From NCBI RefSeq assembly GCF_001552435.1, contig NZ_BCRE01000006.1, positions 1 through 39,758 of the forward strand: a DNA stretch of 39,758 nt, read 5' to 3'. Position 1 is the stretch's first letter. Each line of letters starts with the position of its first letter. The stretch is from Kribbia dieselivorans NBRC 106261 (GTDB lineage Bacteria > Actinomycetota > Actinomycetes > Actinomycetales > Dermatophilaceae). A program made the position numbers and the translations under genes. Positions 36,716-36,765 of the stretch are shown here, in pieces. A model generated the notes under the pieces. The model was given only the letters and a program-made list of their open reading frames with translations, made no database searches and had not been told where the DNA came from.

Positions 36716-36765
36716 CGGTTCGAGGTATTACGCGGCGGAATCCCGCCGCGTAATACCTCGAACCG
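36716..36765. repeat. Family A palindromic repeat, copy 3
   Basis: A perfect 23-bp inverted repeat (36716-36738 and 36743-36765) with the loop AATC. The arm contains CGGTTCGAGGTATTACGCGG. It is 7 nt after the BCCT stop and 19 nt before the asd -10. It is the most regular of the three copies; it may also work as the BCCT terminator. Confidence 0.9.

Follow-up and report, generated by a model that had tools for sequence, protein, structure and literature searches.

In the parts of the literature examined here, REPs are linked to HUH enzymes, or else no enzyme is known for them. In REPtrons, the gene for TnpA-REP (RAYT) lies between its own palindromes, gene and palindrome co-vary, and short palindromes of the same kind are dispersed near stop codons, in tandem and convergent settings, with some copies in genes (PMC3733652, PMC6006769, PMC8266576). 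Actinobacteridae are described as carrying only the IS-type subclass 1.1 (PMC6006769), and CGTC-tagged REPs are palindromes without a known dedicated transposase (PMC3733652). The palindrome family reported here, found in the actinomycete Kribbia dieselivorans NBRC 106261, resembles both groups in these respects. However, neither the Y1 HUH enzyme nor the GTAG foot was found with it, and as these are two defining features, we do not file it as a REPtron. Its partner instead has an AbiEi-like part and a part resembling DUF559/PD-(D/E)XK proteins; the position between two palindromes is occupied in relatives by this unrelated protein, and in Kribbia no gene was found in that position for the GGTTCGAGGT palindrome. 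Unlike the CGTC-tagged REPs, the Kribbia consensus end lacks a CGTC tag and a partner gene is visible in relatives.

The window, by which we mean the whole 39,758-nucleotide stretch of DNA that was analysed, is contig 6 of a 3.29-Mb draft assembly in 310 contigs. A first-pass annotation had described three palindromic units in it, with 23-nt arms and 4-nt loops, and its coordinates and architecture were correct (Table 1). Inspection of the arm pairing showed that the paired change it had noted between copies (GTCGG/CCGAC versus GGCGG/CCGCC) is real and bore out its description of copy 2 as a mixture of both inner-arm forms; two arm pairs are mismatched in copy 1, and likewise in copy 2. The units had been placed 7-43 nt past a stop codon, in agreement with our own measurements, by which the 48-nt cores of copies 1, 2 and 3 are separated by 44, 40 and 8 nt, respectively, from the stop codon of the gene that points towards them (using gene calls from a home-made gene caller). 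All three form stable hairpins, a feature of intrinsic terminators, as their single-strand folding beats that of shuffled sequences (z -7.5, -7.0 and -5.2; none of 200 shuffles equally stable). Rfam reported no family at gathering score within the window. A second palindrome family, which shares GCCGAGGGNACNATNGTGGNG, has a member with 31-bp perfect arms in the window and further members at L123 (about 4836-4904) and L140 (4581-4601).

Table 1. Positions of palindromes and associated features in the window
Feature	Position	Strand	Remarks
Palindrome copy 1	3616..3665	.	loop ATTC; one side has a GGTTCGATGT end
Additional TCGAACC half-site outside copy 1	3666..3685	+	one of the family's outward end repeats
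Palindrome copy 2	14126..14175	.	loop TTTC; mixed interior
Copy 2 right flank	14176..14207	+	G-rich (GGG runs)
Palindrome copy 3	36716..36765	.	loop AATC; 23/23 pairs
GC-rich palindrome	about 19889-19927		strong; adjoins the 31-bp-arm palindrome
Second-family palindrome (GCCGAGGGNACNATNGTGGNG)	19943-20009		31-bp perfect arms

These units belong to a much larger family. The genome-wide search for more copies that the annotation had proposed returned, rather than these three alone, 78 exact matches to GGTTCGAGGT-N20-36-ACCTCGAACC, and 90 copies when inexact ones are included, the latter counted in 584 kb made up of the window plus 60 stretches surrounding matches. The related pattern GGTTCGAGG-N30-CCTCGAACC matched 76 times genome-wide, and its reversed control never. 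Copy length is 48 nt in 89 of the 90 and 47 nt in the other, and the outer 10 nt of the GGTTCGAGGT...ACCTCGAACC ends are nearly fixed. The interior occurs in a few variable types, yet the two arms of one copy agree; of 75 distinct copies, 55-74 have complementary bases at arm pairs 15-19, as compared to means of 25-39 after shuffling. Averaged over 83 copies, the left flank is C-rich and the right flank G-rich, a pattern of which the right flank of copy 2 is the strongest example, and CGAACC half-sites repeat outwards at several copies. A reading of the ends as uptake sequences was rejected, as 18 of the 176 exact end 10-mers in the stretches examined lie outside the counted elements, several of them in elements cut by contig ends, so that single end sites are not in excess. 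An SOS-box reading of TCGAAC/GTTCGA was rejected on inspection because the spacing is wrong. Contigs C5, C13, C71, C73, C76, C88 and C103 of the same genome start or stop inside a copy, and since at least seven contigs terminate in this way the repeats probably broke the assembly. Elsewhere, an identical pair of copies 387 nt apart (L123 5162-5209 and 5597-5644) has inverted matching DNA on its inner sides.

The copies are concentrated at the 3' ends of genes. Of 83 copies, 67 have a 3' end as their closest gene end (median distance 21 nt) and the other 16 have a 5' end, counts that omit seven copies at one locus (L135) where the gene caller missed the surrounding frame. A copy is present between the genes of 36 of 83 convergent pairs, 32 of 305 tandem pairs and 6 of 84 divergent pairs (Fisher p 1e-10 and 4e-8). 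Because the regions were retrieved around copies and genes were called with a home-made program, these rates compare orientation classes and are not genome rates. In other genera, 78 copies comprise 36 at convergent gene pairs, 33 at tandem and 3 at divergent ones, and 6 with an unresolved setting, with eight of the 36 convergent copies coming from one tandem array; before this count, 12 of 77 stretches (L186, L188, L193, L197, L231, L239, L244, L245, L246, L248, L251 and L252) had been set aside as chance matches or other repeats by taxon and sequence. At L163, the copy at 4962-5009 separates a gene that we take to be KH-domain-like from one that is presumably rimM-like, two genes that normally form a tight operon.

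Eight of the 90 copies lie within reading frames. Seven are degenerate copies in one repetitive frame of 1285 codons on contig C49 (L135 4992-7466), which is open to the end of the stretch and in which they encode VRGIxGPNSAxxYLExG-like peptides. In addition, tilS contains one in-frame copy (L174 588-635) that adds about 18 residues and is absent from nearly all relatives examined: in a first alignment one of 29 relatives (G175) had an insert at the same place, and in an enlarged set 2 of 45 distinct tilS genes carry copies, located at the same codon but with different end types. The Kribbia copy has GAGGT ends; that of G175 has GATGT ends, which is the type flanking a partner gene (L308) of the same genome. 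The tilS genes of some other genomes have shorter, unrelated extra residues at the insert site. The simplest reading of these alignments would be two insertions at a tolerant site, although the copies at the same codon could be the remains of an old insertion that was often lost. In a comparable case, two Xanthomonas species are described as carrying different REPs at about the same site in recB (PMC3733652).

The palindrome is not confined to Kribbia. It occurs in its GGTTCGAGGT form in 31 of 186 genomes and 14 of 53 genera of the host family, whose genera include Intrasporangium (placed by NCBI in Intrasporangiaceae), Phycicoccus, Terrabacter, Knoellia, Humibacillus and Janibacter, and it is present too in Desertihabitans, Pseudactinotalea and Occultella. 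Among the matches listed its length in relatives is 46-50 nt, and its interior varies by genome. At L196 1859-2347 in Intrasporangium chromatireducens, eight or more identical copies follow one another in tandem with a 63-nt period. The annotation had interpreted the three units as a REP-like or miniature mobile palindrome family and had suggested that a RAYT gene be sought in the genome. The first part of this interpretation stands, as the 90 copies, their fixed ends and length, their position at gene 3' ends and the in-frame tilS copy indicate a dispersed, REP-like family and not plain terminators. The suggested RAYT was not found: the Y1_Tnp domain (PF01797) was detected in none of 19 genomes (Kribbia and 18 relatives) whereas 5 of 14 control genomes were positive, and neither GTAG nor GT[AG]G was seen as a foot beside the stem in the flank profile of 83 copies.

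A different gene occupies the place of a RAYT. Clustering of the genes around copies revealed one family of five genes, all located less than 300 nt from a copy. In a relaxed scan, palindromes were found on both sides of this gene, which encodes about 310 amino acids, at L178, L182, L199, L213 and L307 and on the visible side at L217; shuffled DNA gave one match in 443 kb. Homologs detected with a profile (A2) are present in at least 135 of the 186 family genomes, a lower bound as the best 12 candidates per genome were scored. They occur in 30 of the 31 genomes with a palindrome copy and in 105 of the 155 without one, an association that is partly circular because some exact copies are the gene's own flanks. 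Among the matches listed, palindromes of this type are located on both sides of the gene in 28 of 30 loci; the two exceptions are L313, where the sequence ends 137 nt past the gene, and L328, which has a palindrome on one side. Further homologs lie between palindromes that match each other left to right but have a quite different sequence (GAACGTGTGTGAA, TTCGAAGAAG, TTTGGGTGCCCAG and GGCCGACGACTCGCC). A genome contains 1-7 homologs among the matches listed, and two homologs of one genome often differ in their ends (L309/L349 and L339/L340).

The flanking palindromes are gene-specific. The left flank matches the right one in 73 of 84 homologs and in 10 of 169 neighbour genes (Fisher p 4e-40); the match threshold of 19 was set at the 99th percentile of cross pairs below 45% identity, of which there were only 16. 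The test covered 89 of 90 loci (one is without a flank), 84 of which remained after proteins at least 90% identical were removed, and it was failed by 11 (L313, L341, L350, L355, L356, L376, L383, L390, L391, L392 and L397). Palindromes of any sequence are present on both sides of 61 of the 84 homologs, on one side of 23 and on neither side of none, while around neighbour genes more than 800 nt away the corresponding numbers are 2, 8 and 18 of 28. In a survey of 396 genomes of the phylum, in which the best 5 candidates per genome were scored, at least eight genomes have a homolog, five of them outside the host family; six loci from outside the family have flank scores of 22-67, for which there is no separate control, and L401, L403 and L407 show the clearest palindromes. 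One genome contains a duplication of at least 4.38 kb that is 99.8% identical (L350/L351) and has its right edge inside a palindrome. This pair was rejected as a unit transposition, as the shared DNA exceeds a unit of gene plus ends; its left edge is beyond the data. No transposition event and, on unsystematic inspection, no target duplication was seen.

To what extent do palindrome and protein change together? Among pairs of different genes, the flanks match in 9 of 207 when protein identity is 40-50%, in 94 of 424 when it is 50-60%, in 15 of 28 when it is 60-70% and in 13 of 13 when it is higher. The GAACGTGTGTGAA palindrome, mostly 48-49 nt long with a variable paired interior, was found in 9 of the 186 genomes, all from one genus (g2; 9 of its 12 genomes), at 1-28 copies each, counts that include the genes' own flanks. 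Homologs in this genus are flanked by GAACGTGTGTGAA (L370, L374, L379 and L381) or by a one-base variant (L378), and a one-base variant also flanks a homolog from another genus (L375). Base 8 of the palindrome end is T in 10 genes and G in 36, and residue 114 of the protein (numbering of the L309 match) is Asn in nine of the T genes and His in one, but neither in any of the 36 G genes; this column was selected on the same data on which it was tested. On a quick FastTree tree, base 8 changes three times (mean of 9.2 and minimum of 7 in 200 shuffles). The T genes form three groups (L308 and L317; seven genes; L350), and the nearest relatives of the L308-L317 group and of L350 are G genes with Thr or Arg at residue 114. 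One locus (L324) has one T-type end among G-type ones. In 20 further loci, for which a single script gave out both the predictions and the flanks and among which there was no T-type gene, so that they cover the G side only, six of six with Thr or Arg at residue 114 and a score above 400 had G-type ends only (four on both sides, two on one). Two lower-scoring Arg loci and two Asn loci had neither end type. The remainder gave no prediction; L426, which belongs to these, has a G-type end and a T-type end on its right side. Judged from these comparisons, the palindromes are gene-specific and change along with the protein.

In the Kribbia genome itself the situation is different for the window family. 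The sole homolog at E <= 1e-20 among the matches listed (L338 4712-5602) is flanked by GTCCTCAC...GTGAGGAC palindromes with a flank score of 33, a type with one more copy at L155 1719; on both L135 and L338, Rfam gave nothing at gathering score. A GGTTCGAGGT-flanked partner gene was not found in the draft assembly, so the window family is either orphaned or its gene falls in an assembly gap, and at present it looks orphaned. Four PF04480 matches of the genome were located, none of them beside GGTTCGAGGT copies. Two weaker DUF559 paralogs also have matching flanks (L255 and L258, scores 43 and 32), in the form of repeats at 639-710 and 1760-1831 of L255 and palindromes at 616-675 and 1762-1823 of L258, each gene having different repeats of its own, and a Vsr-like gene (L257) has a flank score of 12.

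The partner protein appears to combine two parts. Its N-terminal part is AbiEi-like in weak PADLOC matches (E 3e-5 and 8e-5), and its C-terminal part matches DUF559 (PF04480) at 19.9 and 13.8 bits in two proteins and not at all in a third, short of the curated cut-off of 20.6 bits. Residues E213, D244, E255, H261 and D270 are invariant in 84 of 84 aligned rows and D257 is present in 83, and these conserved acidic and histidine residues form a putative active site. A model of the last 119 residues (pLDDT 73.5) has as its best structural neighbour the I-Bth0305I homing-endonuclease domain (Z 5.5 over 80 residues, first of 66 rows), after which come numerous nucleases, along with some unrelated proteins, at Z 2-4.7. 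All Z values are below 8 and a Foldseek search with this model gave nothing significant at 0.001, so that the assignment as a predicted nuclease with a PD-(D/E)XK-like C-terminus is a motivated inference. The full-length fold model (pLDDT 55) gave no usable Foldseek match, and searches of the protein against PHROGs, PDB sequences and plasmids returned no useful match (two PDB rows, E 2 and 3.1). We take I-Bth0305I to belong to the EDxHD family of Vsr-like homing endonucleases, which the partner may resemble in this structural match and in its invariant acidic and histidine residues. However, Z is low, the partner is free-standing between palindromes and outside any intron or intein, and it is associated with dispersed short repeats. 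EDxHD is one of six homing-endonuclease families (PMC6083498). As for AbiEi and DUF559 proteins, the likeness consists of weak sequence matches to the partner's two parts, whereas palindromic flanks are no described feature of such proteins in the literature examined and the DUF559 score stays below 20.6 bits.

We consider it fairly probable that the palindromes constitute REP-like repeats and that they are partnered by a homing-endonuclease-like protein instead of a RAYT. From the genomic pattern we infer binding, cutting, copying and host use as follows. The AbiEi-like part would read the roughly 10-bp palindrome end, and the DUF559/PD-(D/E)XK-like part would nick or cut the palindrome or an extruded hairpin. 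Repair of the break would then copy palindromes to new places and keep the arms of each copy alike. Copies would persist where they are least harmful, that is just past stop codons and between convergent genes, and surviving ones may double as two-way 3'-end hairpins. This explanation is weakened mainly by the apparent lack of a partner gene for the window family and by the low scores of the fold matches. A more specific proposal, which in our estimate stands at an even chance, is that actinomycetes have a repeat-and-enzyme system of a separate kind, in which AbiEi-DUF559-like genes lie between their own palindromes of about 46-60 bp and seed them across the genome by homing-type cut-and-repair, while the palindrome end changes in step with the residue that recognizes it.

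Several other explanations must be weighed against these data. That the palindromes are two-way terminators or mRNA 3'-end hairpins, selected at the RNA level and similar in sequence through descent and recombination, would fit their proximity to 3' ends, the high occupancy of convergent pairs, the very stable folds and the arm covariation. We nevertheless regard it as unlikely, because there is no T tract beside the hairpin (over 83 copies, the T fraction does not exceed 0.31 at any position among the first 20 of the right flank), copies lie within reading frames, length and ends are fixed over genera, and the same palindromes are found on both sides of one gene family. Moreover, mismatches on the mRNA-like strand of tandem-oriented copies (8 G.T, 7 A.C and 30 other) show no sign of RNA-level selection, though the sample is small. 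An AbiEi protein binds inverted repeats in its own promoter, and the palindromes might be operators of an AbiEi-type regulator, the flanking ones autoregulating the gene and the dispersed ones forming its regulon. The AbiEi similarity and the co-variation of palindrome end and protein are what such a regulator would lead one to expect, but operators would hardly be placed at 3' ends and so seldom between divergent genes (6 of 84 pairs), nor do flanks on both sides of the gene and conserved nuclease-like residues suit this idea, and we hold it improbable.

An ordinary transposon of the IS type that has palindromic ends, with the dispersed copies as its MITEs, would account for a gene between matching ends and for short dispersed copies. 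It is nonetheless very improbable, as each end is itself a full palindrome, the 1-7 homologs per genome among the matches listed often differ in their ends within that genome, and the sole near-identical pair shares at least 4.38 kb instead of the unit alone. That these are classical REPs whose RAYT was lost from the lineage is hardly tenable: look and siting are those of REPs, and orphan REPs are described (PMC3733652), but the Y1_Tnp count (0 of 19 genomes, against 5 of 14 controls) and the missing GTAG foot speak against it, and the flanked position is held by another gene.

A search of open PubMed Central full text found no description of a palindrome-plus-nuclease arrangement, although one may exist elsewhere, and our results suggest that the palindromes and the nuclease-like gene constitute an undescribed kind of mobile repeat. 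If the more specific proposal is true, many AbiEi/DUF559 genes of unknown role would be palindrome-homing nucleases, a generalization hinted at by the matching flanks of the two weaker Kribbia paralogs, and a common protein family of unknown role would gain a testable function. A second, unrelated class of enzyme in the role played by RAYTs would show that the arrangement between gene and REP arose more than once. It would also supply natural protein-palindrome pairs, together with a hypothesis of specificity that involves one residue and one base.
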